Source: a virus
IMG/VR virus record: IMGVR_UViG_3300035698_015009
Coordinates: 1 to 48,993 of that record
Length of the DNA stretch: 48,993 nt
Strand: one strand, 5' to 3'
The notes beneath the pieces are model-generated. The model was not told where the DNA came from and made no database searches. It saw nothing but the letters and a program-made list of their open reading frames with translations. Position numbers and translations under genes: made by a program. This document shows positions 1-28,604 of the stretch, in pieces (position 1 is the first letter of the stretch; each line of letters opens with the position of its first letter).

Positions 1-183
1 TCAAGTTCATCAAGTAGTTCATCTTCAAGTAGTTCTGTTTCAAGTAGTTCATCATCTTCAAGCTCTTCAAGTTCAGTTTCATCTAGTTCAAGTAGTTCAT
101 CTTCATCAAGCTCTGTTTCAAGTAGTTTAGTATCAAGTTCTTTAAGTTTTTCAAGTTCATTTTCATCATCAAGTAGTTTAAGT
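1..183 (+). repeat. Polyserine-coding tract A
   Basis: Low-complexity DNA built from TCA, AGT, TCT and AGC serine codons in mixed order (TCAAGT-like hexamers), with occasional GTT/GTA/TTA codons. Codon mixing argues against recent slippage of one triplet. Confidence 0.9.
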
Positions 184-858
184 CTAACAACTACTAATGT
201 AGAAGTAGATTTAATACAGTTTGATGAAAGTTCATCTTCTTCGTTATCAAGTTCATCAAGTAGTTCATTGTATAGTTTTTCAAGTAGTTTATCTAGTTTT
301 TCTTCAAGTAGTTCTTATAGTTCATCAAGTTCGTCTAGCTCATTATCATCAAGTTCTTCAAGTAGTTCAAGTTCAGTATCAAGTAGTTCAAGTTCTTCGA
401 GTAGTTCAAGTTCATTATCTAGTTCTTCAAGTAGCTCTAGTTCTTCAAGTTCAGTTTCATCTAGTTCAAGTAGTTCATCTTCATCAAGTTCTTCTTCATC
501 TTCAAGTAGTTCATCTAGTTTAAGTAGTTCTAGTTCATCTTCATCAAGTTTAGTTTCAAGTAGTTTATCTAGTTCTGTATCAAGTAGTTCTTCTTCATCA
601 AGTTCATCAAGTTCTGCTTCAAGTAGTTCAAGTAGTTCTAGTTCTTCGAGCAGTTCTACTTCTTCATTAAGTTCTATTGTATCATCATCTTCTTTGAGTT
701 CAAGTTTTAGTAGTAGTAGTTCTTTTTCATCTACAAAAAGTGTTGATTGGATTAAAATAAAGAAGGTAAAGATTGAAGAATATATTTCTCAACAAACAAG
801 AATAAAAGAATATATCTCTCAACAAGTTAAGATAAGAGATAGTAAATATTATAAATAA
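1..858 (+). CDS. Ser-rich virion protein, 5' end outside window
   Basis: The reading frame is open from base 1, so the gene begins before the window; the first in-frame ATG (268) is inside the repeat and is not a credible start. About 90% of the visible product is serine with scattered L, V and F. One short ordinary segment (LTTTNVEVDLIQFDE, around 184-231) separates two polyserine tracts. The last 40 residues are charged (KIKKVKIEEYISQQ, with the EYISQQ unit repeated twice). The same type of tract occurs in downstream tail proteins, so a virion (tail or fibre) role is inferred. The long Gln/Val-rich frame overlapping this region is a shadow of the TCAAGT repeat. Stop TAA, 11 bases before the next gene. 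Confidence 0.75.
   Translation, partial: SSSSSSSSSSSSVSSSSSSSSSSSSVSSSSSSSSSSSSVSSSLVSSSLSFSSSFSSSSSLSLTTTNVEVDLIQFDESSSSSLSSSSSSSLYSFSSSLSSFSSSSSYSSSSSSSSLSSSSSSSSSSVSSSSSSSSSSSSLSSSSSSSSSSSSVSSSSSSSSSSSSSSSSSSSSSLSSSSSSSSSLVSSSLSSSVSSSSSSSSSSSSASSSSSSSSSSSSSTSSLSSIVSSSSLSSSFSSSSSFSSTKSVDWIKIKKVKIEEYISQQTRIKEYISQQVKIRDSKYYK
232..732 (+). repeat. Polyserine-coding tract B
   Basis: About 165 codons, nearly all serine, interrupted at irregular spacing by Leu, Val, Phe, Ala, Tyr, Thr or Ile. It is the longest such tract in the window. Imperfect TCAAGTAGTTCA units recur throughout and could support homologous recombination with the other tracts. Confidence 0.9.
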
Positions 859-869
859 AAAGGATAAAT

Positions 870-2783: not shown

Positions 2784-3074
2784 ATGGCAGATAACAGACC
2801 ACCACAAACATTTCATGAAGGTACAGCATTAAAAATCACTACAGTTTTAAGTGAAGCAACTGCTGATACTTGTACAATTACTATAGATGACCCTAGTGAA
2901 AATATAAAAGTAGATGAAGCAGCTATGACTAAAGAAGCTGACTATATTTACTCTTATGTATATCAAAGTAGTGTTGACAATGCTGAAGGAGATTGGATTG
3001 TTACAATTGAAGCAACTATAGGAGATTATACATCTGTAACTCAACGTAAATTTCAATTAGTTGAACAAACATAA
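2784..3074 (+). CDS. Small beta-rich virion protein, 96 aa
   Basis: ATG preceded by AAAGGAC at a slightly long spacing. The 96-residue acidic product has the alternating pattern of a single Ig-like or carbohydrate-binding-like beta sandwich (GTALKITTVLSEATADTCTI ... DWIVTIEATIGDYTSVTQRK). Small proteins of this kind are common beside phage fibre and decoration genes. No signal peptide and no cysteine pairs. Function is not recognised; a structural accessory role is inferred from its neighbours. Confidence 0.5.
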   Translation: MADNRPPQTFHEGTALKITTVLSEATADTCTITIDDPSENIKVDEAAMTKEADYIYSYVYQSSVDNAEGDWIVTIEATIGDYTSVTQRKFQLVEQT

Positions 3075-3099
3075 AATTTTATAGAGTAAATAGGCAATA

Positions 3100-3315
3100 A
3101 TGAAAATAACAGCAAAAAAAATATATGTTATAATTCATGAACTTTTACATATAGCTCACATTTTAAAAGTTATTAACAAAAATAATCTATCTGATGTTCA
3201 AAAACAAGTTATTCACAAGTGTGAAATTAACTTGATGGAAATTCGTCAAGAGATTTTGGAATCAGTTAGGGAAAGTAACAAATCTAAAAATAGGAGGAAA
3301 ATATGTTTGGATTAG
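3100..3315 (+). CDS. Hypothetical 71 aa helical protein
   Basis: Starts at ATG and ends in TAG at 3313-3315, overlapping the next gene by 13 bases. The product is basic and predicted to be helical: an amphipathic N-terminal half (VIIHELLHIAHILKVINK) and a coiled-coil-like second half (EINLMEIRQEILESVRES). No catalytic motif. Coupling to the hydrophobic gene at 3303 suggests they act together, possibly in lysis or at the membrane; this is only context. Confidence 0.5.
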   Translation: MKITAKKIYVIIHELLHIAHILKVINKNNLSDVQKQVIHKCEINLMEIRQEILESVRESNKSKNRRKICLD

Positions 3316-3557
3316 GAGCAATAGTAGCAAAAGTACTTTTATGGTTAAAAAAAGATGGAGCAGCTCTTTTCGGATTAGTCAATTCTCTTGTAAAAATTAT
3401 TAGAGAATTAATTATTATAGCTATCAGAATTGTTGCAATAGTATTACCTGATAAATTGGTAGAAGATGTAGTTATTGCAAAAATAAGTACAATTTTTGAT
3501 ACTGTAGAAGAAAAAATAAAACAAGTTACAGATTGGTTGTTAGGAATGACAAAATAA
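3303..3557 (+). CDS. Small hydrophobic protein, holin-like or membrane-associated, 84 aa
   Basis: A strong AGGAGG lies upstream of the ATG. The first 60 residues are hydrophobic or amphipathic: MFGLGAIVAKVLLWL, a Lys-Asp break, then a long hydrophobic run with ELIIIAIRIVAIVLP. An acidic helical tail follows (EDVVIAKISTIFDTVEEKIK). Length and layout are compatible with a small holin or membrane-active protein, but charged residues inside the hydrophobic stretch make the number of membrane segments uncertain. Function is inferred only. Confidence 0.45.
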   Translation: MFGLGAIVAKVLLWLKKDGAALFGLVNSLVKIIRELIIIAIRIVAIVLPDKLVEDVVIAKISTIFDTVEEKIKQVTDWLLGMTK

Positions 3558-3564
3558 ATGTGAT

Positions 3565-3589: not shown

Positions 3590-3603
3590 CAAAGGAGTTC
3601 TAA

Positions 3604-4660: not shown

Positions 4661-4661
4661 A

Positions 4662-7352: not shown

Positions 7353-7355
7353 AAA

Positions 7356-8618
7356 GTGGGAGCATGTACATCAACACAGATAGACAGAGTACAAGAAATA
7401 ACCGGTTCTATTACTTTAAATAGAACAAAAATAGAAGAGGTAGGAAGAGATGGAATAGTTTGTTGGAAAAGTGGAACCCCTACTGTTACATTAACAGTAA
7501 GACAGTTGGAATATGGAGATGTAGAATTTTTCAGAAAATTAGCTAACGGTCTTGACGCAACAAATAAATTCGAGATGACAGATTATAAAACACCTGCTGT
7601 TGGTATTGCAGGATATTTAACAGATGATGATAGTAATTTTTTAGGTACAGTTTGGTATCCTAAAACTAGAGTTGCTGGTTTTGGTTTTACTATAGGAGAC
7701 CCTGAAGCTAGTATGGAAAGAACCTTTTCATTAGTTGGAGAAGATGAAATTGTATTACAAGGAAATAACAAATATTTGATTGAGTTAGTAGATGAAACTT
7801 GTGCAGGTGCGTCTCATACGATTCAAATTGGTGCTGGAGATTGGGCTAATTGGCCTACACCTGTAGAAGACCCGGATAGAGCAGGTTCAGATAAATATAT
7901 GCTTAGAGTTACAAGAATAAGAGCAACTGTAGCTACTGATTTAGTAGACGGTACTGATTTTACTTATAGTAGTGTTACTACAACAATTACGATACCTGCT
8001 TCTCTTGCTGATGATGATTATAAAGTTTATTATTCAGCAGCAGCTTATATAACTGATGCAAGTACATTTACAGAGAATGATACAGATTTATGTTCTATAA
8101 GTGCTGATTCTGCTAGTATTTATTTAGCTACTGGTAATTATTTATATAGATTACAAAGTGTTGCTGTTGATGTTAATTGGGATAGATACGATGTAAAAGA
8201 AATTGGTAACAATGAAGTTGTAGCATTTGGAGCTAGAGATATTACAACTAGAATAACTCTTGGAAGAATTTTAGAAGATTATACTATTGAAGAAGTTTTA
8301 AGAGGACAAGCTTCAGATTATGGAAAGATTGATATTAGAGAATTTGTTGACGATGCTGTTTTAACAATAAAAATTTATTCAGATGATACTAAAGCAACTT
8401 TTAAATGTGGTTATGAATTCTCAGGTTTATCACCTGTTGGAATAGATGATGGAACACCTCTTAATGATTATGTTACTAAAGGTGTAACTCTGGAAGGTGA
8501 AGAAGGTTTTGTTACTGCTACTGAATCAGATTTAACAACTGTTAGTTCTTCATCTAGTGAATCATCAAGTTCAAGTTCTAGTTTCTCATCAAGCAGTTCA
8601 AGTTCAAGTACTACATAA
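7356..8618 (+). CDS. Probable major tail tube protein with Ser-rich C-terminal tail, 420 aa
   Basis: GTG is the first start downstream of an in-frame TAG at 7350; no good RBS precedes it, so the true start is uncertain. The N-terminal domain (VQEITGSITLNRTKIEEVGR, then TVTLTVRQLEYGDVEFFRKL) resembles tail tube proteins of long-tailed phages. The rest is acidic and beta-rich. Residues 396-419 are an added Ser tract ending SSSTT. If this is the tube protein, a Ser tail would be displayed in many copies along the tail. Position before the chaperone and tape measure genes supports the call. Confidence 0.6.
   Translation: MGACTSTQIDRVQEITGSITLNRTKIEEVGRDGIVCWKSGTPTVTLTVRQLEYGDVEFFRKLANGLDATNKFEMTDYKTPAVGIAGYLTDDDSNFLGTVWYPKTRVAGFGFTIGDPEASMERTFSLVGEDEIVLQGNNKYLIELVDETCAGASHTIQIGAGDWANWPTPVEDPDRAGSDKYMLRVTRIRATVATDLVDGTDFTYSSVTTTITIPASLADDDYKVYYSAAAYITDASTFTENDTDLCSISADSASIYLATGNYLYRLQSVAVDVNWDRYDVKEIGNNEVVAFGARDITTRITLGRILEDYTIEEVLRGQASDYGKIDIREFVDDAVLTIKIYSDDTKATFKCGYEFSGLSPVGIDDGTPLNDYVTKGVTLEGEEGFVTATESDLTTVSSSSSESSSSSSSFSSSSSSSSTT
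8544..8612 (+). repeat. Polyserine-coding tract at C-terminus of tail tube gene
   Basis: About 23 codons, nearly all Ser with one Glu and one Phe, ending in Thr-Thr-stop. The same ending, SSSTT, occurs at the end of the fibre gene at 27231-28604. Confidence 0.85.
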
Positions 8619-10043: not shown

Positions 10044-13000
10044 ATGGCACTACAAGCAAATGTAGTATATGTAATTAGTTCAGTATGGCAAGGAAAAGGA
10101 GCAACTCAAGCTAGTAAGTCTCTTGAAAATATGGCAAGAAAAAATACTGCTGCTATGCAAAAATCAAATAGTAGTATAAAAGAAACTGGTAGAGTTTATT
10201 CCTCATTTTATAAACAGACTAAAGAAGGACAAGTTGCTATGGTAGGGTTGTCCCAAACTCATCAAGATGCAGCAGGAGTAGTGTCTAATAGTACTCGGGT
10301 TTATAGACGATGGGGTAGAGGATTTAGAGAAATAACAAAAGAAACTAAATTAAATTCTGGAGCTATGGCTAAACATAAACAGGGTTTGGCAGGATTAACT
10401 GAGGGATATGGTAAATTAGCTCTTAGAGCTGTTTCTGTTATTCCTATATGGATGACACTTAGAATGATAATGGGAGGATTAACTAAATTAGTTGGAGATA
10501 GTTTAAAAACTTGGAATGAATTAAATCAAGAAATGGGAAGAGTTGCAACTGTTACTCGTGGTACTGCTCAAGATATTAATAATTTAAGACAAGAAATATT
10601 AACTTTTAGTTCAGATTCATCTCGAGGATTTAAAGAAGCCGCTTCTGTTATGTATGCTTTAGGTAGTGCTGGATTGAATGTAAAAGAACAGATGATTGGT
10701 ATGAGTCATATTATGAATGTAACTATTGGTACTTTTGGTAATGCTGAACAAATAGCTAAATTAGTTTCTGGAGCATATAATGTATTTGGTGATTCTATAG
10801 AAGGAGTTACAACTTCTTCAGAAAAATTTCAACATATATCAGATATGTTAGCTTATACATATTCTAAACAACAAGTAGAATTATCTGAAATAGCTAATGC
10901 TATGACATATGTTGCTTCTATTGGAAGTTTATTAAATATATCATTCGACACCTTAGTAACTACTATAGGTGTTTTAAATACAGGAATGTTAAAAGGTAGT
11001 AAATCTGGATGTTATGATGAAGAAACTGAAGTATTGACTAAAGAGGGATTTAAATTTTGGAAAGATGCAACTAAAAATGATGAGTATGCTACACTTAATC
11101 CTAAAACACATGAATTAGAATATCAAAAACCTACAAGAATGGTTAAAGAAAAGTATAATGGATTAATGTATAAAGCAAAAAATAAACATTTAGATTTGTT
11201 AGTTACTCCTGACCATTGGATGTATACTAGAACACAACATAAAGATTATGAGAGTAACCATGCTAGAGATATTTTTGGGAAAGAAAGTATCTATTTAAGA
11301 GGGGCTGATTGGACTGGGAAAGAACCAAAATATTTTACCCTATCTTCTTTTGAAAGAAGTGAAGGAAAAAATAGAGAACATGCTGTTGTTCCAAAAAAGA
11401 AAATAAAAATAGAAGACTATCTAGAATTCATGGGATGGTATTTATCTGAAGGTCATGTTAGTTTTTCTGAAAAATTTATTAACAATTCTCTTTATTCTAT
11501 TGTTGTTAGCCAAAATAAATCTGGAAAATATTTTTCTGAACTTAAAAAATGTTTAGAAAAATTACCCTATAATTTCAATTATGGTTTAACACAACATTAT
11601 GCTAGAAACCAACAGTTGTGGAGATATTTAAAACAGTTTGGAAAATCTCATGAAAAATATATTCCTAAAGAAATAAAAGAATTATCTCCAAGATTGTTAA
11701 AAATATTCTTAAAAACTTATGTTATGGGAGATGGAGTTTTTATTAGAGATGGGTTTAGGATTATAACTAGTTCTACTATGATGAGAGATGATTTGGAAGA
11801 AATTGCTTTGAAAGCTGGTTATGGAGTTCAACATAATAAAGTTAAGAGTAAAGGAAGTTTAGCAATATTTAAACATTGTACTTGTAAAAGAAATCACGAT
11901 TTATGGCAAATTAGTATTACTCCAAGAATAGAATTTTCTTTTAGAGGTAAAAGAAGAATAACTAATAAAGTAAACTTTGGAAATTCTAAAATAGAAGAAA
12001 AATGGGCCCAATATAGTGGAAATATTTATTGTGCTGAAGTTCCTAATCATATACTTTTTGTTCGTAGAAATGGGAAAACTGTTTGGTGTAAAAATACCGC
12101 CTTAATGAATGCTTTTGTAAAATTAGCTGTTAGTGGAGATAAATTAGCAAATTTAGGTATAATATTTGACCCTAATCAACCTTTGGACTTTCTTGATGTA
12201 ATGACACAATTAAATAAATTATATGGTGGTCAAGCTTTATCACTACAAAATTTAAAAGAAATAATGGATGTATTTGGTCGTAGAGGTGGTAGAGCTGCTG
12301 CTCAATTAATTAAAGATTTTGATAGATGGAAAGAAGCTATAGATGATTCTAAAGCTGAGTTTAAAGATTTTGCTCAATACATGAAAGATACAGCAGAAAA
12401 TACTTTACCTGGTTCCTGGGCAAAATTATGGAATTCTGTAAAAGTAAATATAGCTGGAAGTTTAGGTGAAATGAAAGGATTAATCGATTATATTGTAAAA
12501 GCTTCAGAAAAGTTGGAAAGAGGAAGAGTAATAAGTCAATATGAAAAATTTCTTGATAAAGGAGATGTTAGAACAAGTAAATTTGCTAGTGTTTTACCTA
12601 GTCTTATTAGTTCTGTTGCTGGTCCTTTAGGAACAAGACCAGGATTAGTGATAGAGGAAAAAATTGCTGGAAAAACAAGAGATTCTCTGCAAAAACAGAT
12701 AGAAGCGAATAAAACTTTAATGGATTTTTATAATCAAGCAGAGGTATCAGCTAATAGAACAAAAAAAGAAAAAGAAGAAACAGTAACTTTTGACAAAATT
12801 TTAGCAAAATTAGGAGAAGACAAACTTAAATATAGTTGGTCTGAAACATTAGTTAATGAAAAATTAAACAAAATAATTGATACTAGATTAGGAGGAGTAA
12901 AAGCTGAAGGTAAAACACGTGAAGAACTTTTAAAGATATTAAATGATGAACTAAAAATACAAGAAAAACTTTTAATAGGAGCTTCAAAGTTAAATAGAGA

Positions 13001-14639
13001 AGATAAAGTAAAATTTGAAAAGATAAAAAATACTGCTAAATATGAAATGATGTCTCTTAAACATGTAAGAGAAAGTGTTATTGCAAGAGAAAAATTATCA
13101 GATGTAGTTAACCGTGTAAATGTAGTAATTGCTGAAACTAATAAAAAAGAAGAAGACACTGCAAAAACAGAAAAAAGACAAATTAAATTTAAGTTAGAAA
13201 GTTTAAGTGTTGCTAAATTAATTGCTGGAGAAAATAACGAAGCGATTGCAGCTTATCTAAAAATAGGTGGAGTTCAAACAGATATTCTTGATATAGATAA
13301 AAAACGATTAGAAGTACAAAAAGAATTGGCTGCAGAAATTCAAAACTATTCTGATAAATTAGAAAGTTCTTTATCTGGTATATTTAAAGAGATTTTAACA
13401 GGTGAAGAACAAGTGGTTAATGTTTTTCAAAGAATTGGTGATTCAATGAGAGATACATTATATGGTGCAATGGCAGATTCTTTTTCTAAAGCTCTAATAA
13501 GTACTGGATTAGGTGATGCTTTTGGAGGAATTGGTAATAGTTTAGAAAATATGTTTCAAACTCCTGAACAAAAATTAGAAAAAGCTGGAGAAGATGGCAT
13601 TACTGCAGGGTCTGTTATTCTTAATACAGCCTTGCTAGAAACTTTTGTTAAAGGGGCAGAAATTATAAGAAGTGTTTCTCCTCTTCGCCCAGCTAGTACA
13701 AAAGAATCTATAGAAGGTATAGAAGAAGCTCTTAATTATAGAGGGTCCGCTGACTCAGCATCAGCATTGAAATCATCTTTAATGAGTGATTTCTTTACAA
13801 AGATATTTACAGACAAAGAGGAACCTGTTGCTACTGTTATGGGAAAACCAGTTTTTGAAAGCCAAACAAAAAGTGTAGGTGAAGATTTTAATAACACAGT
13901 AATAAAATCTGGTGCAGAGATGGGTAAAGAAGGTGGTAAAGAGTTAGTAAGAGGTGCTAGAGAAGTAAGTGAGATTGCTAAAGAAGATAGTACAAAATTA
14001 CTTACTGGTATGGCAGCAATATTTTCGCAAGCTGCTTATTCAGGTAGAGCTGGGGAAAGTAGTGCTTTAAGGGGAATATCAACGGGGCAAGGAATTATTA
14101 GTACTCTAGCAGCTCCGTTTTCAAAAGCTCAATCAGGATATGGACAAAAAGGTGGACAAATTGGTCCACCAACTCAAGCTCAAGCTAGAACTCAAGCATG
14201 GGGCCAAGCAGGTAATATAGCAGGTGGTGCAATAACTGGTGCAATAGCTGGGTATTCTCAATATAAAGCTATGACAGGTGGAGGAATAAGTAAAGGATAT
14301 TCAGGAGTAGCAAGTGGTTTAACAGCAGCAGGAGCAATGATATCAATGATTCCAGGTTATGGGACAGTAATTGGTGGTCTTATGATGGTAGCAGGAGCAC
14401 TTATGCAAGTATTTGCACAACCTAAAGCAGCAGAAGCAGCAAGAAGTATAGAAAGTAGAGTACAAACAAATCAAGTTACAAGTCGTATAGATGTATCTAA
14501 TAAACAATTAGAACTAGTAAATAGAAACTTATTAGCTTTAAAAGATGAAATGACATATATAATGCAATCCTCTTATTATTTTAGAGAAAAAACTGTTGAG
14601 GACAGATTTGCAATAGACTCTCAGAGAGGAAACCTATAA
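10044..14639 (+). CDS. Tail tape measure protein interrupted by an intein, 1531 aa precursor
   Basis: Largest gene in the window. Residues 1-322 and 685-1531 form the tape measure protein (about 1169 aa after splicing); 323-684 are an intein. The N-terminal part has the TP901-type core (TWNELNQEMGRVATVTRGTA, VMYALGSAGLNVKEQMIGMS). The middle is helical coiled coil (about 880-1100), and the C-terminus has Gly/Ala hydrophobic segments (AAGAMISMIPGYGTVIGGLM) able to insert in a membrane. It sets tail length and takes part in DNA ejection. Joining the flanks restores KGSKSG-TALMNAF, a typical uninterrupted core sequence. The stop overlaps the next ATG (TAATG). Confidence 0.9.
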   Translation: MALQANVVYVISSVWQGKGATQASKSLENMARKNTAAMQKSNSSIKETGRVYSSFYKQTKEGQVAMVGLSQTHQDAAGVVSNSTRVYRRWGRGFREITKETKLNSGAMAKHKQGLAGLTEGYGKLALRAVSVIPIWMTLRMIMGGLTKLVGDSLKTWNELNQEMGRVATVTRGTAQDINNLRQEILTFSSDSSRGFKEAASVMYALGSAGLNVKEQMIGMSHIMNVTIGTFGNAEQIAKLVSGAYNVFGDSIEGVTTSSEKFQHISDMLAYTYSKQQVELSEIANAMTYVASIGSLLNISFDTLVTTIGVLNTGMLKGSKSGCYDEETEVLTKEGFKFWKDATKNDEYATLNPKTHELEYQKPTRMVKEKYNGLMYKAKNKHLDLLVTPDHWMYTRTQHKDYESNHARDIFGKESIYLRGADWTGKEPKYFTLSSFERSEGKNREHAVVPKKKIKIEDYLEFMGWYLSEGHVSFSEKFINNSLYSIVVSQNKSGKYFSELKKCLEKLPYNFNYGLTQHYARNQQLWRYLKQFGKSHEKYIPKEIKELSPRLLKIFLKTYVMGDGVFIRDGFRIITSSTMMRDDLEEIALKAGYGVQHNKVKSKGSLAIFKHCTCKRNHDLWQISITPRIEFSFRGKRRITNKVNFGNSKIEEKWAQYSGNIYCAEVPNHILFVRRNGKTVWCKNTALMNAFVKLAVSGDKLANLGIIFDPNQPLDFLDVMTQLNKLYGGQALSLQNLKEIMDVFGRRGGRAAAQLIKDFDRWKEAIDDSKAEFKDFAQYMKDTAENTLPGSWAKLWNSVKVNIAGSLGEMKGLIDYIVKASEKLERGRVISQYEKFLDKGDVRTSKFASVLPSLISSVAGPLGTRPGLVIEEKIAGKTRDSLQKQIEANKTLMDFYNQAEVSANRTKKEKEETVTFDKILAKLGEDKLKYSWSETLVNEKLNKIIDTRLGGVKAEGKTREELLKILNDELKIQEKLLIGASKLNREDKVKFEKIKNTAKYEMMSLKHVRESVIAREKLSDVVNRVNVVIAETNKKEEDTAKTEKRQIKFKLESLSVAKLIAGENNEAIAAYLKIGGVQTDILDIDKKRLEVQKELAAEIQNYSDKLESSLSGIFKEILTGEEQVVNVFQRIGDSMRDTLYGAMADSFSKALISTGLGDAFGGIGNSLENMFQTPEQKLEKAGEDGITAGSVILNTALLETFVKGAEIIRSVSPLRPASTKESIEGIEEALNYRGSADSASALKSSLMSDFFTKIFTDKEEPVATVMGKPVFESQTKSVGEDFNNTVIKSGAEMGKEGGKELVRGAREVSEIAKEDSTKLLTGMAAIFSQAAYSGRAGESSALRGISTGQGIISTLAAPFSKAQSGYGQKGGQIGPPTQAQARTQAWGQAGNIAGGAITGAIAGYSQYKAMTGGGISKGYSGVASGLTAAGAMISMIPGYGTVIGGLMMVAGALMQVFAQPKAAEAARSIESRVQTNQVTSRIDVSNKQLELVNRNLLALKDEMTYIMQSSYYFREKTVEDRFAIDSQRGNL
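11010..12095 (+). mobile_element. LAGLIDADG-type intein in the tape measure gene, 362 aa
   Basis: Starts with Cys (codon 323: CYDEETEVLTKEGF, block A) and has block B DLLVTPDHWMYTR. Two LAGLIDADG-like helices (YLEFMGWYLSEGH and FLKTYVMGDGVF) indicate a homing endonuclease domain. It ends with block F/G NIYCAEVPNHILFVRR and VWCKN, with Thr as first C-extein residue. The terminal Asn and +1 Thr are suitable for splicing. The penultimate residue is Lys instead of the usual His. Both endonuclease helices keep an acidic residue (Glu or Asp) at the catalytic position. Confidence 0.92.
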
Positions 14640-15739
14640 TGTCACGAAAAACTTGGATAGTATATAAGAAAGTAGGAAGTTATTGGAGTTTGGATGGAGC
14701 TTTATATCGTCCTAATGATAATTTTCCTTTACAAAAAGTTTCTACTCAAAAAAGAGTTCCTTTAGTTGATGGAAGTAAAGCTTTTGTAACAACTTCTACT
14801 TATTATGTTAATCAACCTTTAGTGTTTCAATGGTATTATGATGACGGAACTACTAAAACAAAAGTAGAAACTTATATTAATAATCAGAATGATTTAAAAA
14901 TAACAGACCAAAATAATACAGAATATACAGGAAGATTTGTTTCTCTTGATTCTAACTTAATGTTAGGAATAGAACCAGACACTTATGATTTAACAGCTAA
15001 GTTTGAAAGAATGCCAGATATTACTGCATCAAGTTCTATATCTAGTTCCTTATCAAGTAGTTCAAGTAGTAGTTCAAGTTCTTCAAGTTCGAGTATTAGT
15101 TCTAGTAGTAGCTTTAGTTCTAGTAGTAGTAGTTCAAGTTATGGAGGAAATACTGTAAGTTTTACTGGTTCAGATAATATGAAAGATACTTATACTTCTA
15201 GTAGCGATGCAGCTAGTAATTTTTCAGGTGAAAGTGGTGTTCTACAAATTGGATATGAACCTGTTACTATTAAACGTGGTTATTTTAAAGTTACTAATTT
15301 ATTATGGGATATTCAATCTACTGCTGTAATAGAGTCTGCTGTATTAAAAACATATTGTTTTAATAGTAGATATTCTAAAAGTTGTAGAGTTTATAGATGT
15401 ACTCAAGATGTAGATACTACTGCTATAACATGGAATACTAATGTTACATTTACAACAGATGATGGTGCTTCACCAAATGTATCAGACCCTGCTTGGATTG
15501 AAGCAGATGTTACTGATATGGTTCAATGGATAATTACTAATCAAACAAATTATGGTTTTGTTATGAAACAAGATAATGAAGCAGTTCAAGGTTCATGGGA
15601 CATTCGTCTTACTGAATATACTTCTCATAAACCTGTTTTAGAAGTAACTTATTACTTAACTTCTAGTTCTTCATCATTAAGTTCATCTTCAAGTTCATCT
15701 TTTTCAAGTTCTTCAAGTAGCAGTTCTATAGGAGCGTAA
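14639..15739 (+). CDS. Tail-tip protein: distal-tail-like domain, Ser linker, DNRLRE-like domain, 366 aa
   Basis: Start ATG overlaps the tape measure stop; RBS GAGAGGAAA. Residues 1-129 form a beta domain (TWIVYKKVGSYWSLDGALYR ... VETYINNQNDLKI) that is clearly paralogous to the start of the next gene. A Ser tract occupies 130-168. Residues 172-335 match the DNRLRE pattern: adhesive-like beta sandwich with 'VLQIGYEPVTIKRGYFKV', 'VIESAVLKTYCF', 'TAITWNTNVTF', DVTDMVQWI and 'NYGFVMK', ending KPVLEVTYYL. A second Ser tract forms the C-terminus. Probably a tail-tip or distal tail protein with a surface-binding domain. Confidence 0.65.
   Translation: MSRKTWIVYKKVGSYWSLDGALYRPNDNFPLQKVSTQKRVPLVDGSKAFVTTSTYYVNQPLVFQWYYDDGTTKTKVETYINNQNDLKITDQNNTEYTGRFVSLDSNLMLGIEPDTYDLTAKFERMPDITASSSISSSLSSSSSSSSSSSSSSISSSSSFSSSSSSSSYGGNTVSFTGSDNMKDTYTSSSDAASNFSGESGVLQIGYEPVTIKRGYFKVTNLLWDIQSTAVIESAVLKTYCFNSRYSKSCRVYRCTQDVDTTAITWNTNVTFTTDDGASPNVSDPAWIEADVTDMVQWIITNQTNYGFVMKQDNEAVQGSWDIRLTEYTSHKPVLEVTYYLTSSSSSLSSSSSSSFSSSSSSSSIGA
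15029..15142 (+). repeat. Polyserine-coding linker in 366 aa tail protein
   Basis: About 38 codons, almost all AGT/TCA/TCT/AGC, with Ile, Leu and Phe interruptions. It separates the conserved N-terminal domain from the DNRLRE-like domain. Confidence 0.9.
15661..15730 (+). repeat. Polyserine-coding C-terminal tract of 366 aa tail protein
   Basis: About 23 Ser codons with one Leu and one Phe, followed by Ile-Gly-Ala-stop. Confidence 0.9.
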
Positions 15740-15743
15740 AATT

Positions 15744-18626
15744 ATGGCAAGAAGCACATGGTCAATATATAAAAAAGTAGGAGTTTACTGGATTGCAGAC
15801 GGTACTTTTTATCGTCCTAACGAGACTCTTATTACTAATAAACTATCTACACAATCAAATATTCAAAGAAGTCAGGGTGGTAATGTTTACATGACTCCTT
15901 CTACAAAATATATTGATGAAGTAATAAGTTTTATTTGGTATTATGATGATTCTACTATGAAAAATAAAGTAGAAACTTATATTGAGAATCATAATGATAT
16001 AAAAATAGTTGACCATAGTAGTAATGAATATATTGGAAGATTTTTATCTATAGATGTTGGGTGGATACATGGAGAATCTTCAAATAGATATGATATTCAA
16101 ACTACTTTTGAATTTATGCCATTAATGACTGCTTCTAGTTCAAGTAGTAGTCTTAGTAGTTCAGTAAGTTCTTCAAGTTCTTCAAGCTCTGTTTCAAGTA
16201 GTTCAAGTAGTTCAAGCTCTTCAAGTTTATCTTCAAGTTCTTCATCAAGTTCAGTTTCATCTAGTTCTAGTAGTTCTAGCTCTTCAAGTTCAGTATCAAG
16301 TTCTTCAAGTAGTTCATCATCATCAAGTTCATTATCAAGTTCATCAAGTAGCTCATCTTCAAGTTCTTCTAGTTCACTATCAAGTAGTGTAAGTTCTTCT
16401 AGTAGTTCATCTTTTGCTTGTATTTATGATATGTTTGACATTGATGCTAATCTAGTGTCTCATTGGAAAATGAATGATAATGCTACTAATACTACAATTG
16501 TTGACAGTAAAGGAACTAATACTGGTACATTAGGAGTAAACACAAATACTATGACTACAAATGGTAAAATAAATACTGCTTTGTTTTTTACTAATGGAAC
16601 AGCTAATTTCGGAAATGATGCTAGTTTAGATTTAGATGTATTATCTATTGCCTTTTGGATTAAAGGTCCTGCACAAAGTGCATACAAAGATTTACTATAT
16701 AAAACAATATGGAATACTACAGGTTATCGTATTTCAGGAGATTTTGGTACAACAAACATTAGAGTAAGAATTGATACTTCTGCTGGTACTAATCAATCAA
16801 ATGCTCCACTAACAGTTTATGATAATACTTGGAATCATGTTGTTTATACAATAAATAATAATACTGGTAGAGTAGAAGGTTTTCTTAATGGAAACTATAC
16901 TTCTGGCTATAATTATTTACCAGGAACAGGAATTAAAGTTCCCGCTAATAATTTTTATTTTGCTGGTAGTATGAATTCAGTTGCAATTGATGATTATCGT
17001 ATTTATAATGCTATTATTACAAGAAATAAAATTAGAGCTATATATAATCAAGGAGAAGGTACTGAAAATCCATTAGGTTGTGCTAGTAGTTCTTCTAGTT
17101 CTAGTAGTTTGAGTGTGAGTTCTAGTAGTAGTTCTTCTAGTTCATCAAGTTCTGTTTCAAGTTCTTCTAGTAATTCATCTTCATCAAGTAGTTCTAGTCT
17201 AAGTTCTTCTTCATCATCTATTAGTTGTAGTACAGGTAATCAATTCTGGAACTTAGAAGATAATTTAGTAGCTCAATGGAAATTAAATGATAATGCTGCT
17301 AATACTACTGTTGTATGTTCAAATAATGCTACTCATAATGGAATAATGTCTGTAAATACCGATGTTGCATCTGTAGCAGGTAAAATAGGAACTGCTTTAG
17401 ATTTTAATGGTGATAGAATAGTTACTGTTTCTAACCATTCAGATTTTACATTTACTAATGACTCTCAAGATGAACCGTTTTCTGTAGCAGCTTGGGCATA
17501 TATGGATGAAATAAATGGTTATGATGTAATAATATGTAAATATTCTGGAGGTAGTCAATCAGAATGGTGGTTTGGAATAGATTGGACAGAAAGACCTGCT
17601 CTTTTTCTACGTGATAAAACAAATGCTATAGCCTGTTTTAGACAAATAGATGATGCTTTAGCTAAAGGAAATTGGTATTTTATTGTTGCTACTTATGATG
17701 GTTCAGGTGGAAGCACTGCTACTAATGGAATAAAAATATATATAGATAATTTAGAAGTTGCCTCAACTCCAAATAATGAAGCTTCATATGTCTGTATGAG
17801 AGCCACTCCTACAGATGTAACTATAGGAGATAATGCTGGCAGAACTACACCTTATGAAACAGAATTAGACAATATACTGGTATTTAATAAAGAATTATCG
17901 CATAATGAAACTCTTGGTTTATATAATGAAGGAAGTGGAACAGAAGCATTAAGAGGTTGTTGGTCAAGTAGTAGTTCTTCTTCATCATTTTCAAGTTCAT
18001 TATCAAGTTCATCAAGTAGTTTATCCTTATCTTCATCTAGTTCTTCATCATCAAGTAGCAGTTTATCAAGTAGTTCATCAAGCTTATCATCATCAAGTTC
18101 AAGTAGTACTTTATCTACAAGTTCTTCATTTTCAAATTCAGTTAGTAGTTGTGTTCCTAGTTTAGCCACTTATTATTTTGATAGTTATGATTCAGGTGGT
18201 GAGGAGTGGCCTCAAAATCCTGAGTACATGGTTGATAATAATACTGCAAATCTTGCTCAAAGTAGCAATGTAGCAGATGTAGTTGAACTTCTTACTGGAA
18301 ATACTTGTGATGGAACAGATTTAGGAACAATAACAAAAGTTGAATTACGAGCCTTTGCATATACTCTTTTCAATGCCCAAGACAACTATACATATCTCAG
18401 ACCTGTATTTGGTGGGGGCGATGGAGATAATCATAGTATTACTGACCAAAGTCCTGCTCAATGGTCTCCTTATTATGAAATTACAACAGATTCTAATGCA
18501 CCTAGTCCTTGGACTTGGGCTGCCGTCCAAGCCTTGAATTGTGATGTTGATTATAGAGTTGGACCCTCCACAAAGGTAGAACATACGGCTAGTAAGGTAG
18601 AAATCCGGGTTACTTATTGTGAGTAA
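15744..18626 (+). CDS. Tail fibre-like protein with two LamG/concanavalin-like domains joined by Ser linkers, 960 aa
   Basis: RBS GGAG, ATG 4 bases after the previous stop. Residues 1-128 are paralogous to the previous protein (TWSIYKKVGVYWIADGTFYR). Then come Ser tract 129-223, LamG-like domain 1 (about 227-445; VSHWKMNDNATNTTIVDSKG, NHVVYTINNNTGRVEGFLNG), Ser tract 448-494, LamG-like domain 2 (about 497-738; VAQWKLNDNAANTTVVCSNN, FIVATYDGSGG), Ser tract 740-800, and a final beta domain (805-960). The 'L..HWKmnDn' start and the 'W..v..TyD' strand are hallmarks of LamG/ConA lectin folds, so carbohydrate binding at the host surface is likely. Confidence 0.75.
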   Translation: MARSTWSIYKKVGVYWIADGTFYRPNETLITNKLSTQSNIQRSQGGNVYMTPSTKYIDEVISFIWYYDDSTMKNKVETYIENHNDIKIVDHSSNEYIGRFLSIDVGWIHGESSNRYDIQTTFEFMPLMTASSSSSSLSSSVSSSSSSSSVSSSSSSSSSSSLSSSSSSSSVSSSSSSSSSSSSVSSSSSSSSSSSSLSSSSSSSSSSSSSSLSSSVSSSSSSSFACIYDMFDIDANLVSHWKMNDNATNTTIVDSKGTNTGTLGVNTNTMTTNGKINTALFFTNGTANFGNDASLDLDVLSIAFWIKGPAQSAYKDLLYKTIWNTTGYRISGDFGTTNIRVRIDTSAGTNQSNAPLTVYDNTWNHVVYTINNNTGRVEGFLNGNYTSGYNYLPGTGIKVPANNFYFAGSMNSVAIDDYRIYNAIITRNKIRAIYNQGEGTENPLGCASSSSSSSSLSVSSSSSSSSSSSSVSSSSSNSSSSSSSSLSSSSSSISCSTGNQFWNLEDNLVAQWKLNDNAANTTVVCSNNATHNGIMSVNTDVASVAGKIGTALDFNGDRIVTVSNHSDFTFTNDSQDEPFSVAAWAYMDEINGYDVIICKYSGGSQSEWWFGIDWTERPALFLRDKTNAIACFRQIDDALAKGNWYFIVATYDGSGGSTATNGIKIYIDNLEVASTPNNEASYVCMRATPTDVTIGDNAGRTTPYETELDNILVFNKELSHNETLGLYNEGSGTEALRGCWSSSSSSSSFSSSLSSSSSSLSLSSSSSSSSSSSLSSSSSSLSSSSSSSTLSTSSSFSNSVSSCVPSLATYYFDSYDSGGEEWPQNPEYMVDNNTANLAQSSNVADVVELLTGNTCDGTDLGTITKVELRAFAYTLFNAQDNYTYLRPVFGGGDGDNHSITDQSPAQWSPYYEITTDSNAPSPWTWAAVQALNCDVDYRVGPSTKVEHTASKVEIRVTYCE
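16132..16413 (+). repeat. Polyserine-coding linker 1 of the LamG fibre
   Basis: About 94 codons of mixed Ser codons with Leu or Val interruptions at irregular spacing (4, 9, 12, 13 or 15 residues). Confidence 0.9.
17089..17226 (+). repeat. Polyserine-coding linker 2 of the LamG fibre
   Basis: About 46 codons between the two LamG-like domains, with Leu, Val and Asn interruptions, ending before a Cys (SISCSTG). Confidence 0.9.
17965..18143 (+). repeat. Polyserine-coding linker 3 of the LamG fibre
   Basis: About 60 codons between LamG-like domain 2 and the C-terminal domain. It is less pure than the others (Phe, Leu, Thr, Asn present). Confidence 0.9.
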
Positions 18627-18630: not shown

Positions 18631-18795
18631 ATGAAAATATTAGAAAATAAAATTGAATTTAAAATAGATTTCATGTGTAAATGTGAAAATTCTAGATTTA
18701 TAAAAAAAGAAATATGTTCTACACATATAACATTATTATGTGTAAAATGTGAGAAAAAATTTAGAATCAAAATCTTTACTGAGGAGATAAAATAG
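18631..18795 (+). CDS. 54 aa zinc-ribbon protein
   Basis: ATG 18631 starts four bases after the previous stop; the frame ends in TAG overlapping the GTG start of the hub gene (TAGTG). The product contains MCKCEN ... ICSTHITLLCVKCEKKFRIK: a CxC, a Cys-x3-His and a CxxC, suggesting one zinc ribbon. It also carries the hub gene's RBS (GAGGAGA). Function unknown; it may be a small zinc protein or a remnant of an endonuclease N-terminus. Confidence 0.55.
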   Translation: MKILENKIEFKIDFMCKCENSRFIKKEICSTHITLLCVKCEKKFRIKIFTEEIK

Positions 18796-21700
18796 TGGCT
18801 AAACAATTAACACCAGTGATACAATCGCAAATTTCAAGTCAAGATATAAAAATAACTTTCATATTTAAAATTAATAATGTTGTTTATTCTAGTTTTTTAC
18901 TTGATTGGAGTATTTCTGCAAGTAAAGAGTTTGGTTCTGTTTCAGCAACATTTTCACTTAATAACAATGATGAAAGATTTAGTACCGACGGGAGTGCAAC
19001 AATACAAGTTGGAGATGTTATAGAATTTATAGAAACCTATACTGATGACCCAACTGAGTGGACAAGATTTTATGGAAAAGTTAATCAACGTGCATTAAAT
19101 AAAGGAGTAACAAGTCGTACAATATCTCTTAATTGTTTAGATTATCTGTCTGATTTACAAACTTGGGACATAGATTTAGAAGTTGAAGGTACTAAATTTG
19201 AAGTTACTGAAGAAACTTTAACTCCAAATTATTTAGCATCTCCTAATAATATGTTTGCACAACTATTCGATTTTACTAATGATGCTATAGCAACCAATCC
19301 TATGCCAATATTAATGATTAGAAATAAAGATACCTCAGTTGATGACCCTCAATATGATGGTTTTGATATTCTTTATGCTGTTGGTCAAGTTCAATTTGGA
19401 GCTCCATTAAATGCAAGAGATAATTATGATGTAGTAGCTACTTCTTATTATTTTTATTCAACTGGAGTATATTGTGAAGATGTATTAGAGGAAATTTTAA
19501 CTACTCCAGATGGTTATGGAAATTATTTATTTGGTGAATCTTCTGCTCAAGATGTAATAGATAATCATTTAACATCTACTTATCAAACCGAAATAGGTGC
19601 AGGAACTACAGATACTTTAACACCAAACTCAATATCATCAGATGTTACTATTCAAACCCAATGTGCTGCTTGTTCTGCTGGGGACACTAGTCTTGTTCTT
19701 GTTTCTTCAGATGGCTTTCCAACTATTGGTCAAGCTAGTTTAAATGGAGATATATTTACTTGGACAGGTATTACTAGTAATACTCTAACAGGTATTCCTG
19801 CTACTGGTAGCTATGCTTTAAAAGCTCATCCTGCTTGGAGTTATGCAAAATATGAAGCAACTTATCTTCCTGGACAAGTTTGGTATTTAAAATATTCTAA
19901 TTTAGTTACTACTTTAACTAATGGTGATTTCACAATTCCTGGAGCTACAATGACTTATCTTGATAAACGAAGAGGTAAAATTATTCTTAATACAGCAATT
20001 TCTACAAGTGCTACTGTAGTTTGTGATATTAATTACACATTTAAAACTTTACAAGCTTCTGGAGTAGAATTAAATAGAATAACATTTCGTTCTAGAGAAA
20101 TAGACAATAGACTTGGAGCTATAAATAAATTACGTGAGTATTTAGCACCAAATTATATTATACGTACTGAGGGAAATGACAAAATTTGGGCAACCTATCT
20201 GACTCAAAAAACCAATGCTGATTATACATTAACATTAGTTCAACAAAATTCATATTTAGAAGATGAAGATTTATATACAAGAGTATTATTTTATAGAAAA
20301 AATAAAAATCCTACCAATCTATTATTTGATGAAAGTGTAACATTTAAAACTACTGGATACCCTTATAAAGCTTATACAAATAGTCCTGTTACATTAACTT
20401 TTGATGGAACTACTGATGGGTGGCATACTTACTCAACTACTATTAGTAATGCAGGGTATATTAAGTTAGATGTTTATAAACCTAAAATCTGGATAAATAA
20501 TGTTCAAATAGATGATACTCCTTTACATCTAATATCACAACCAATTAAATACGAAAAAACAACAAGAGTGGATTCTTGGACAGAACAGGAAGATGGTAAA
20601 GATGAAGAAGTAGAAATACATACTAGAACTTTTAATTATTATAAAATTAAGTTTTTTGGACACCAGAGCTTGGCACCTAATAAAGATATAAATGTATATG
20701 ATGTTAATGGGGCAGAAATATTAACAATTCCTGCAAACGATACTGCTATGGATTATGCTAGAGGAGTTTATACAGTTCCTGGTAGTGGATGGAGAATAAG
20801 AGAATTAACAGAAGATGAAAAAATAATAAATGAACGATTTCCAGGACTAATAGTAAATCCACTAGAAGCCATGCCTATTAGTAATGCTATAATAGAAACT
20901 GTTTCTACAGCATCTTATTGGGTAATGTATTCTACAGCAGGATTAGAAATAGATTATGATAATGTTTTATTTAAGATTGATAATATAAATATACCAGACC
21001 CTACAAAAGCAGTAGTTACTGCTCAATTTGAATATATATCAGTACATACATCTGTTCAAGGAATAGCAGCAATCACTGATGGAAGATGGGATACTCAATG
21101 CCAAACAGAATTTTATTCATCTCCTCCAGGGGGATATACTTATGGAATTTTGGATTTAGGAGCAACTAAAACTATACAAGCAATTGATATAATATCAGGT
21201 TTTTATAAACCAGATGAATATAGAAAATTTGATACAGAAGTAAATTTTACTTTACAATATTCTTTAGATAATGCTTCTTATTATGAAATCAGTGATAAAA
21301 CTCATAATTTTCAATTAGTTGGAGGAGAAGCTAAAAGCATTGAAGAAAGTGATTTAGGAGTAAATTTTGAAGCAAGATATATAAAACTTATATTAGAAAA
21401 TGTTAAAAAAATAGATTTTAAAATTGGATTATATCCTGTAGTTATAACTGAAGTGGCTATGTATGATAATATTATCTTAAAAGCAGAAGCAAAATTAATA
21501 GGAACAACTAAATTAACTCAAAATGTATCTCCAGGAGATACAACTATTTATGTAACAGATACTTCTACATTTACTGACCCTGTTAGTAGTTCTTCTAGCT
21601 CATTATCTAGTTCTTCAAGTAGTTCATCTTCATCTAGTTCATCATCAAGTTCTGTAAGTAGTTGGAGTAGTTCATCTTCATTAAGTTCTTCATCTAGTCT

Positions 21701-22316
21701 TTCTTTGAGTTCTTGGAGTTCATCTTTAAGTTTCAGTTATTCTTCTACAAGTTTAAGTTCTACTTCAAGTAGTTCAAGTACTTCATCTTCAAGCAGTTTT
21801 TCTTCAAGTAGCGTATCTTTTTCAAGTTCATCTTCATTGTCATTATCAAATACAGAAGATATAGCTTATATTAAAGATAGTAGTGGAAATTTTCATGTAT
21901 TTACATATACTGGAATAACTTCTACTTCATTTACTGGTTGTACTGTAGATTCTGGAGTGTCTGGTCTAGTAGGAGATTATGTATATCAAAGTATGGAAAG
22001 TGATACAACATTATATGATGATGATGGATTATTATCTCAACTTGGAGATAAAGTATTTAAAGAAGTAAAAATAAGTGATGAAAACTTGTATACTCAAACT
22101 CAATTAGATAGTTTAGCTAAAAATTATTTAAGAGAGTTTTACAAAAATCATTCTAAAATGAAAGTAGATGTTTTATATTCTCCTTATTTAAAAATAGGAC
22201 AAACTATATCTGTAACTGATAGCTATAATAATATATCTGCCGTTAATTATTTTATAGAAGAAATAACAGATAAACAGGGCTCTTATGCGTTAGTGTTAGC
22301 TAGGTACCCTGGTTAA
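18795..22316 (+). CDS. Tail hub / tail-associated protein with discoidin-like domain and Ser insert, 1173 aa
   Basis: GTG start after GAGGAGATAAAATA. The N-terminal part (SISASKEFGSVSATFSLNNN, VGDVIEFIETY, 'FYGKVNQRAL') has the layout of phage baseplate hub or tail-tip proteins. A region at about 745-892 matches F5/8 type C (discoidin) domains: 'AAITDGRWDTQ', GYTYGILDLGATKTIQAID, 'FTLQYSLDNASYYEI', 'EARYIKLILENV'. A Ser tract follows (929-1018). The last 150 residues return to hub-like sequence (SLAKNYLREFYKNHSKMKVD, 'LKIGQTISVTDSYNNIS'). The Ser tract is thus an insert within the hub protein rather than a tail. Confidence 0.65.
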   Translation: MAKQLTPVIQSQISSQDIKITFIFKINNVVYSSFLLDWSISASKEFGSVSATFSLNNNDERFSTDGSATIQVGDVIEFIETYTDDPTEWTRFYGKVNQRALNKGVTSRTISLNCLDYLSDLQTWDIDLEVEGTKFEVTEETLTPNYLASPNNMFAQLFDFTNDAIATNPMPILMIRNKDTSVDDPQYDGFDILYAVGQVQFGAPLNARDNYDVVATSYYFYSTGVYCEDVLEEILTTPDGYGNYLFGESSAQDVIDNHLTSTYQTEIGAGTTDTLTPNSISSDVTIQTQCAACSAGDTSLVLVSSDGFPTIGQASLNGDIFTWTGITSNTLTGIPATGSYALKAHPAWSYAKYEATYLPGQVWYLKYSNLVTTLTNGDFTIPGATMTYLDKRRGKIILNTAISTSATVVCDINYTFKTLQASGVELNRITFRSREIDNRLGAINKLREYLAPNYIIRTEGNDKIWATYLTQKTNADYTLTLVQQNSYLEDEDLYTRVLFYRKNKNPTNLLFDESVTFKTTGYPYKAYTNSPVTLTFDGTTDGWHTYSTTISNAGYIKLDVYKPKIWINNVQIDDTPLHLISQPIKYEKTTRVDSWTEQEDGKDEEVEIHTRTFNYYKIKFFGHQSLAPNKDINVYDVNGAEILTIPANDTAMDYARGVYTVPGSGWRIRELTEDEKIINERFPGLIVNPLEAMPISNAIIETVSTASYWVMYSTAGLEIDYDNVLFKIDNINIPDPTKAVVTAQFEYISVHTSVQGIAAITDGRWDTQCQTEFYSSPPGGYTYGILDLGATKTIQAIDIISGFYKPDEYRKFDTEVNFTLQYSLDNASYYEISDKTHNFQLVGGEAKSIEESDLGVNFEARYIKLILENVKKIDFKIGLYPVVITEVAMYDNIILKAEAKLIGTTKLTQNVSPGDTTIYVTDTSTFTDPVSSSSSSLSSSSSSSSSSSSSSSSVSSWSSSSSLSSSSSLSLSSWSSSLSFSYSSTSLSSTSSSSSTSSSSSFSSSSVSFSSSSSLSLSNTEDIAYIKDSSGNFHVFTYTGITSTSFTGCTVDSGVSGLVGDYVYQSMESDTTLYDDDGLLSQLGDKVFKEVKISDENLYTQTQLDSLAKNYLREFYKNHSKMKVDVLYSPYLKIGQTISVTDSYNNISAVNYFIEEITDKQGSYALVLARYPG
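21583..21848 (+). repeat. Polyserine-coding insert in the hub gene
   Basis: About 88 codons. Richer in Trp, Thr, Leu, Tyr and Phe than other tracts (SSWSSSSSLSS, SFSYSSTSLSSTSSS), suggesting an older or differently selected copy. Confidence 0.88.
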
Positions 22317-26972: not shown

Positions 26973-27228
26973 AAAGAAAGAGTATCCCATTAGTATAAAC
27001 GGATTTACTATGACAATGGTTTGTATAGATGGTAAAGTAATATCAGCTCATAAGAGAAAACCTGGAGTGATTATAAATAATGGAACTATTGAAACAGCTT
27101 ACAATGGAGCTTACTGGTTAAGGCCAGATTTTAATGAATCTATGGAAGAAATGGCTTGTGAATTAGAAACCAAATTACAGCAGATAAAAAAGAAAACTAT
27201 TTTAATAAAATTATATAAGGAGAAATAG
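26947..27228 (+). CDS. Hypothetical 93 aa protein
   Basis: ATG after GAGGATAAA. A small beta-rich start (EYPISINGFTMTMVCIDGKV) and helical end (NESMEEMACELETKLQQIKK). It ends in TAG two bases before the next ATG and supplies that gene's RBS (AAGGAG). Not recognised; context suggests tail or fibre assembly. Confidence 0.5.
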   Translation: MKLEKFLHKKKEYPISINGFTMTMVCIDGKVISAHKRKPGVIINNGTIETAYNGAYWLRPDFNESMEEMACELETKLQQIKKKTILIKLYKEK

Positions 27229-27230
27229 AT

Positions 27231-28604
27231 ATGGCAACAGATAAAATTTATAGAGTTGCACCGAATGATACTAACTTAAATAAAATTAAAAATCTTAACG
27301 ATATGATTATCTATCTGGAAGGGTTGGTTGAAAAAGGAAGATTTAATAAGAATGAACTTGACCAATTATATGAGATAGCTGATATTGCTAGAAAATATAA
27401 AAGAAATCAAGGAATAGGTAATACTACAGGAACATATACTGGTTGGACTCATTTGAAAGAAGAAGACGGATATAGTATCTGGTATTATATACAAAGTGAT
27501 TATGTTTATAATGCAGTAAACAAACTGTATTTTGATGAACAAGTTCTTTCTAACAAAGGAAATGCCGATTCTGAAAGTGCTACTGCATTTGATAAAGTTT
27601 ATTTATATGATGGAAGTTATGAAGACCATACAACAGAAGCAGCAACTGAAGGAGGAACAGAATTTAGTTTAATGGATGCTACTGGAGAATATTTATATGT
27701 TGGAGAGGCTGCTACATTTGCAGGTACTAAGATGGAGTGGCAAACCAGAGGAAGTAATTATACTTTAGTTGTTCAATATTGGAATGGTGCTGCATGGACA
27801 ACAATGACAGCTAATGCAAACACCTTAGATGATGATACTAATAGTTTTGAAAGTAATGGTAGAATTACTTGGGTAATTCCAGATGATTGGGCTACGGTTG
27901 CTATTAGTGGACAAACTAAATATTGGATAAAAATTTCAACTTCAACAACCCCAGTAACTACTGCAAAAGCTTATTATATTATTCCTGGAGATAGTGTAAT
28001 ATCATTATTAGCTTTATCTAGCACTGAAATTATAAATGAAGATTGGGCATGGTGTAGTTGTTCTGCATCACCTACTCGTATCTATGTTACTATTAGAAAT
28101 ACAGGAAGTACTTCATATGAAGGAGATTATTATATCAATTCTTCTAGTAGTGTTACTAATAAACAAAACTTTCTTATTTACAATCATCCTTTTACAGCAG
28201 ATTATAAAGATACTGATTATGATGCTGTAATAACTAAAACCAATAATTATACTATTCTTTCTAATGATGGTACTATATTAGGAAATACTACAAGTAATGA
28301 TATAACACTTTATTTACCGACAGCAGTAGGAATAGAAGGAAAGCGTTATACAATCAAAAAAATATCTGCTTCAAATGCTTTATCTATTAATGGAAACAAT
28401 ACAGAAACTGTTGATGGGAAGTCTAATAGAGTTTTAAAAGATGATAATCAATCTTTAACTGTTGAAAGTGATGGAACAGGATGGCAAATAATTTATTCTC
28501 ATACTTTATCATTATCATGGTCATCATCTAGTTCAAGTCTTAGTTCAAGTAGTTCATCTAGTTCATCATTTAGTTCTTCATCTAGTTCATCTTCAACAAC
28601 ATAA
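27231..28604 (+). CDS. Tail fibre protein with Ser-rich C-terminus, 457 aa
   Basis: RBS AAGGAG. N-terminal helix and attachment part (KIKNLNDMIIYLEGLVEKGR), then a beta domain with 'YLYVGEAATFAGTKMEW', 'LVVQYWNGAAWTTMTANANT' and 'TKYWIKISTSTTPVTTAKAY', a motif series common in phage fibre beta sandwiches. Next is a tail-fibre style repeat (NYTILSNDGTILGNTTSNDI ... LYLPTA ... YTIKKISASNALSI). Residues 424-455 are Ser-rich, ending SSSTT like the tail tube protein. Role: host contact or fibre scaffold. Confidence 0.65.
   Translation: MATDKIYRVAPNDTNLNKIKNLNDMIIYLEGLVEKGRFNKNELDQLYEIADIARKYKRNQGIGNTTGTYTGWTHLKEEDGYSIWYYIQSDYVYNAVNKLYFDEQVLSNKGNADSESATAFDKVYLYDGSYEDHTTEAATEGGTEFSLMDATGEYLYVGEAATFAGTKMEWQTRGSNYTLVVQYWNGAAWTTMTANANTLDDDTNSFESNGRITWVIPDDWATVAISGQTKYWIKISTSTTPVTTAKAYYIIPGDSVISLLALSSTEIINEDWAWCSCSASPTRIYVTIRNTGSTSYEGDYYINSSSSVTNKQNFLIYNHPFTADYKDTDYDAVITKTNNYTILSNDGTILGNTTSNDITLYLPTAVGIEGKRYTIKKISASNALSINGNNTETVDGKSNRVLKDDNQSLTVESDGTGWQIIYSHTLSLSWSSSSSSLSSSSSSSSSFSSSSSSSSTT
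28504..28595 (+). repeat. Polyserine-coding C-terminal tract of the 457 aa fibre
   Basis: About 30 Ser codons with Trp, Leu and Phe interruptions, ending in Thr-Thr-stop. Confidence 0.9.

Follow-up and report, generated by a model that had tools for sequence, protein, structure and literature searches.

Introduction

Very long serine-rich stretches are carried on surface proteins by the serine-rich repeat adhesins of Gram-positive bacteria. Saccharophagus and Cellvibrio carbohydrases have their functional domains set apart by polyserine linkers (PSL), and in the secreted carbohydrases of these genera, as well as of Teredinibacter and Microbulbifer, long serine runs join folded domains, often to carbohydrate-binding modules (PMC2386152). 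Serine-rich linkers are thought to be flexible (PMC10598543). On the tails of phages, major tail proteins can bear C-terminal additions that stick out from the tube and that some phages can do without (PMC8718954). Lambda gpV, T5 pb6 and SPP1 gp17.1* are tube subunits with such an extra segment, decorated with Ig-like or FN3 domains. Furthermore, mycobacteriophage virions are glycosylated; their capsid and tail tube subunits reportedly carry glycans at the C-terminus (Freeman et al. 2023, as cited in PMC12619734). When about 100 phage proteomes were surveyed for low-complexity regions, these proved rich in Ala, Gly and Pro and had at most 115 residues (PMC6821194). Polyserine is thus known as linkers in bacterial carbohydrases; as tails or tethers on phage virions, we found no description of it in the open-licence full-text literature.

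Here we describe serine tracts in an uncultivated tailed phage, represented by a virus contig of 48,993 bp (IMGVR_UViG_3300035698_015009), which was analyzed as a whole and is called the window below. Genes are named by their coordinates or first position. Like the PSL, the internal tracts of genes 14639, 15744 and 18795 are near-homopolymeric serine between two folded domains. Unlike the PSL, the window tracts sit on phage virion proteins, three of them are free C-terminal tails, and they are interrupted by bulky hydrophobic residues instead of Gly and Thr. The genes do not encode secreted bacterial carbohydrate-active enzymes, but lie in a phage virion block adjoining the tape measure gene. 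As in lambda gpV, T5 pb6 and SPP1 gp17.1*, the presumed tube subunit has an extra C-terminal segment; unlike theirs, it is a low-complexity serine tract and not a folded Ig-like or FN3 domain, and in this virion the fibre and tip proteins have tracts as well. With the glycosylated mycobacteriophages, the window shares phage-encoded glycosyltransferases, the tail tube C-termini being the site there and the place of polyserine here. In contrast to those phages, modification is only a possibility for the window, and a relative keeps the glycan cassette without tracts. Long serine-rich surface stretches are common to the window proteins and the Gram-positive adhesins, but the window proteins are not cell-wall adhesins.

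Serine tracts in the window

A six-frame scan for at least 8 Ser in 12 residues, with overlaps merged, revealed ten tracts, all on the + strand and within six genes, and none in other frames or on the - strand. All ten read as serine in the coding frame. These are far more than chance expects: an all-Ser-like 48-base pattern occurs 7 times in the window, versus 0 in 100 dinucleotide shuffles. Over 40 residues, the six tract proteins peak at 53-95% Ser, and the next ORF of the window at 30%. The serine codons are mixed (AGT 39%, TCA 34%, TCT 22%), and one tract has ~165 residues. The tracts are placed at C-termini or between domains of the following genes, listed together with the tape measure gene:

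1..858, + strand: gene truncated by the contig start; tracts 1-189 and 220-744, ~70% Ser, followed by a basic C-terminus
7356..8618, + strand: presumed tail tube protein (synteny); C-terminal polyserine tail 8535-8615 (aa 394-420)
10044..14639, + strand: tape measure protein, the synteny anchor; intein-like insertion at ~aa 324-684, absent from the relative G055
14639..15739, + strand: tail-tip/fibre-type protein; N-domain aa 1-128; tracts 15023-15151 (linker) and 15653-15736 (C-terminal tail)
15744..18626, + strand: paralogue of 14639; tracts 16125-16421, 17073-17237 and 17952-18149
18795..22316, + strand: large tail protein with tract 21576-21851 (aa 928-1019), which is inserted where the G055 homologue has a short linker
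27231..28604, + strand: tail-fibre-type protein; C-terminal polyserine tail 28503-28601

Because the contig starts inside the first tract, gene 1-858 is N-terminally incomplete and can only tentatively be counted among the virion genes. The + strand block runs from an HK97-gp10-like gene through the presumed tail tube, small chaperone-like genes and the tape measure to the tail-tip/fibre genes. The order as far as the tape measure, which is the same in G055, is the basis for calling 7356-8618 a tail tube. This protein had no match in Pfam, PHROG or PDB and no confident fold, the AlphaFold models being too poor for use (pLDDT 34 for the tail tube, 44 for the N-domain). A profile comparison with Phage_tube_2 proteins gave no match either, so that its identity as a tail tube stays presumptive. 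The N-domain of 14639 is common to 15744 and a 131-aa G055 protein. In 15744, this N-domain, probably the anchor, is followed by a tract, a LamG-type domain, a second tract, another LamG-type domain, the third tract and a C-domain; the match to Laminin_G_3 (E 1.3e-22) covers two stretches.

An earlier note on this DNA had counted ten tracts in six + strand genes, with none on the - strand, and the scan agrees. It had also seen them as a uniform addition to unrelated proteins, at domain junctions or C-termini, which the mapping of the tracts and the comparison with G055 confirm. Its claim of a tract on the tail tube holds for the C-terminal tail, while the tube itself is recognized from gene order.

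Relatives without tracts

Related contigs were reached through the glycan cassette of the window, described below: G001 via a GT10 gene, G002, G003 and G004 via alignment of GT10 proteins, and G055 and G056 via alignment of the cassette gene that lies closest to the virion block, the only route by which G055 was reached. G001 has the cassette in the same order as the window and none of its virion genes. G055, an IMG/VR contig of 90,259 bp, has both the same virion gene order and the same opposite-strand glycan cassette, and zero serine tracts. Identities are 57% for the tail tube, 34-41% for the N-domain of 14639 and 15744, 54-57% for 18795 and 52% for 27231, and there are also homologues of the tape measure and of the genes downstream of the tail tube. 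A homologue of gene 1-858 was not found in G055.

In all five tract genes with a G055 homologue, the tracts are add-ons at a C-terminus or domain border, with flanks conserved up to that border. The G055 tail tube homologue stops where the polyserine tail of the window starts, the 27231 homologue (431 aa) stops ahead of the tail, and the single 131-residue protein matched by the two paralogues ends at the onset of their tracts. The homologue of 18795 aligns at aa 1-926 and 1029-1173 and carries only a short linker where the window has its tract. Cassette genes are also present in G056, whose tail tube homologue again lacks a tail.

Since G055 has the same genes in the same order, the tracts are, to judge from these alignments, optional and lineage-specific additions, without effect on gene layout. 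The earlier note had proposed such a comparison of tract position among related genomes, and had listed tracts missing from close relatives with an unchanged layout as evidence against its own reading; G055 is such a case. Given the tail-less G056 and the cultured tail tubes described below, a gain in the lineage of the window would be simpler than a loss in G055, although two genomes cannot prove it. Cultured-phage relatives were not found for 870-2723, the 18795 protein, the 36629 glycosyltransferase or the presumed tail tube, nor were IMG/VR relatives of the tail tube or 18795 by a single-sequence pattern.

Other insertions were also observed in the window. Across the site of the intein-like insertion, the tape measure of G055 aligns continuously, and a stretch homologous to the insertion lies inside an upstream chaperone ORF of G056 (2911-4323), which together suggest a mobile intein. 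At 4199-5432, two successive ORFs both end in VSRRTQ, the second being an HNH/NUMOD3 endonuclease. The shared ending suggests that the first gene had its end duplicated by a homing insertion.

Recurrence in other phages

A DNA pattern of mixed serine codons was found at 49 loci in IMG/VR, mostly in long tracts, and in some other contigs the tracts are several times longer than the ~165 residues seen in the window. Several tract genes per contig are usual: besides the window, at least two were present in 18 of the 25 distinct contigs examined, some of which are related and all of which were picked for having a tract. Polyserine C-terminal tails occur on tail tubes of the Pfam family Phage_tube_2 (PF18906) in L200, L032 and L222, as well as on DUF2460 proteins, and polyserine linkers adjoin F5/F8C sugar-binding domains. 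Five related phages share tail tubes with 74-82% identity across the tube domain; each of these tubes ends in a tail at a fixed position, ~23-33 residues long and with varying interruptions. Such a fixed position with drifting length and interruptions is as expected of a disordered segment. Four cultured homologues of tailed tubes, from a low-complexity-filtered search, end 3-6 codons past the homologous part, without a tail. No prophage hosts of polyserine tail tubes were found. With comparable runs at equivalent places in many unrelated uncultivated phages, the tracts look like optional flexible tails and linkers that were gained repeatedly, and not like a constant component of the virion.

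Scanning cellular genomes with the DNA pattern retrieved many contigs of Microbulbifer, Teredinibacter, Cellvibrionaceae and rumen bacteria, with tracts flanked by Gly/Thr and interrupted mainly by Thr and Gly. Very long polyserine tracts were seen in L309, a Candidatus Peribacteraceae contig, and in SUUS01 contigs of rumen Alphaproteobacteria.

Residue pattern of the tracts

The residues interrupting the window tracts are 88% hydrophobic, versus 31% expected under one-step mutation of serine codons (p 6e-30). As tandem copying inflates these raw counts, we also left out the tracts with a repeated 39-nt unit and counted each residue type once per tract, and 20 of 25 interruptions were still hydrophobic (p 8e-7). 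Arg, Gly, Pro, Asn, Cys and Ala together account for 3 interruptions, versus 52 expected, and Val is two changes away from any serine codon. A universal spacing of the interruptions was not found, runs of 6, 8, 11 and 14 being commonest in places. Simple triplet slippage was rejected as the origin of the tracts because their codons are mixed.

Glycan cassette

Directly behind the virion genes, the - strand block from ~29.7 kb to the contig end holds a glycan cassette, interspersed with many homing-endonuclease genes. The cassette has seven genes resembling glycosyltransferases, two of LicD type, others like cytidylyltransferases, and a methyltransferase, and includes:

30989..31621, - strand: glycosyltransferase (Nucleotid_trans, PF03407)
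35286..36209, - strand: GT10-like glycosyltransferase
36629..37555, - strand: GT10-like glycosyltransferase
39448..40440, - strand: Glyco_trans_1_2 glycosyltransferase
41038..41871, - strand: GT7-type glycosyltransferase
42220..42753, - strand: GT10-like, probably truncated (only the C-terminal 177 residues of a 304-residue G001 homologue)
44208..44921, - strand: GT2 glycosyltransferase
45606..46250, - strand: LicD-type phosphotransferase
46765..47187, - strand: cytidylyltransferase-like protein (by sequence; 84% identity to G001)
47879..48472, - strand: second LicD-type protein

The cassette (30989-48472, with GT10, GT7, GT2, LicD and cytidylyltransferase-like genes) is conserved in G001, G002, G003, G055 and G056. 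By sequence inspection, its relatives add APS kinase-like and sulfotransferase-like genes and a DegT-like aminotransferase, and G002 (6173-7513) and G055 (84611-85867) have a nucleotidyltransferase-LicD fusion. In the window, a single - strand ORF (32406-33374) fuses a NUMOD3-type endonuclease sequence to a cytidylyltransferase-like domain.

Proposed function and origin of the tracts

On balance, we consider it just about probable that the tracts are disordered hydrophilic polyserine segments, acquired by several tail and fibre proteins in this lineage and serving as tethers and as a C-terminal brush. The internal tracts of 14639, 15744 and 18795 would be long, flexible tethers, with one end on a tail-anchoring domain and the other on a carbohydrate-binding or other surface domain, and would hold carbohydrate-binding domains off the tail tip. 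The extended linkers proposed by the earlier note are the best fit for these internal tracts, as 15744 alternates them with anchor, LamG-type and C-domains. The C-terminal tracts of 7356, 14639 and 27231 would be free tails, forming a hydrophilic brush over the tail exterior, in the position where other siphophages have their C-terminal Ig-like or FN3 decorations. Selection at the protein level would keep the pattern of serine with sparse bulky hydrophobics and almost no Gly, Pro, Arg or Asn, while tract length and the positions of the interruptions may drift freely. We infer disorder, virion exposure and the tether and brush functions. The C-terminal tails are left unexplained if the tracts are linkers only, as are the strongly selective hydrophobic interruptions if the tracts serve solubility only.

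The same tracts could also be scaffolds for dense O-glycosylation by the phage glycosyltransferases and LicD/cytidylyltransferase-type enzymes, giving a mucin-like tail coat, a reading that we regard as rather unlikely. Besides the mycobacteriophage precedent, it draws on the position of these genes right behind the virion genes and on the cassette phage G003, which has serine-rich SG-aromatic repeats in tail proteins beside its cassette. These proteins (L014 2491-3906 and 7965-10517), made of repeats such as SGYSGFSGWSG, are scored by Pfam as collagen repeats. However, cassette and acceptor tract do not always co-occur: G055 has the homologous cassette and no tracts, and G056 the cassette genes and a tail-less tube. 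The cassette is thus independent of the tracts, which shows only that its enzymes have other work too, and they may act on the host surface, lipid or DNA instead. Among 25 polyserine contigs and 25 length-matched controls, all of them fragments, which limits the power of the comparison, there was no sign of enrichment for GT2 (0/25 vs 2/25), GT4 (Glyco_trans_1_4; 1/25 vs 1/25) or Glyco_trans_1_2 (0/25 vs 1/25), and a glycosyltransferase link as a general rule for polyserine phages was not supported. The shared modification site suggested by the earlier note is weakened by both results. In this particular phage, which owns the enzymes, phage-directed glycosylation is possible and the cassette could decorate the serines of the tracts; the evidence does not require it. 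It is less likely still that serine tracts were added simultaneously to several tail proteins so that the phage's own cassette would coat the entire tail with phosphate-bearing glycans, as a mucin-like virion, with G055-like relatives using the cassette on other sites.

Another reading places the cause mainly in the DNA, with a repetitive module that spreads by recombination, lengthens by tandem duplication and is tolerated at protein ends and linkers; it comes close to the recombination-prone module of the earlier note, and we think it improbable. Measured against a null that preserves codon pairs, tracts in different genes resemble each other in DNA slightly more than expected (P 0.013 for the sum, 0.010 for the best pair and 0.001 for the third best), with 66 bp at 88% between the 16.1k and 21.6k tracts and 117 bp at 78% between gene 1 and the 16.1k tract. 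A 39-nt (S12-V) unit is repeated in tandem in gene 1-858 and also in the 16.1k tract, and several tract genes per contig are the usual case. With this similarity, some copying between genes, chiefly 1, 15744 and 18795, is likely, DNA copying as such being weakly supported (P ~0.01). On the other hand, the tracts draw on both serine codon boxes in a thorough mixture, their interruptions depart far from the mutational expectation, every window tract is in the serine frame, and the protein pattern F-S8 common to the C-terminal tails sits in different codon boxes. The module idea of the earlier note is modestly supported. As for the interruptions themselves, the serines might be spacers and the spaced bulky residues stickers, making weak contacts between tails or with host material, so that the tracts are adhesive and not inert. 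Bulky residues (L/V/F/I/M/Y/W/R/K/Q/H) indeed make up a median of 93% of interruptions in phage tracts, versus 42% in the cellular tracts that favour Gly and Thr (p 1e-4), and polyserine alone is able to drive protein association in human cells (PMC9934293). That eukaryotic precedent is intracellular, however, and the spacing of interruptions ranges from 3 to more than 20 residues within and between phages. We regard an adhesive role as very unlikely.

Returning to disordered tails and tethers, tracts of this kind were added again and again, in unrelated phages, to tail tubes, tip proteins and fibres, and their residue pattern is not the cellular one, which points to a common selective benefit. 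The natural pairs of tail tubes with and without a polyserine tail offer a simple test bed.
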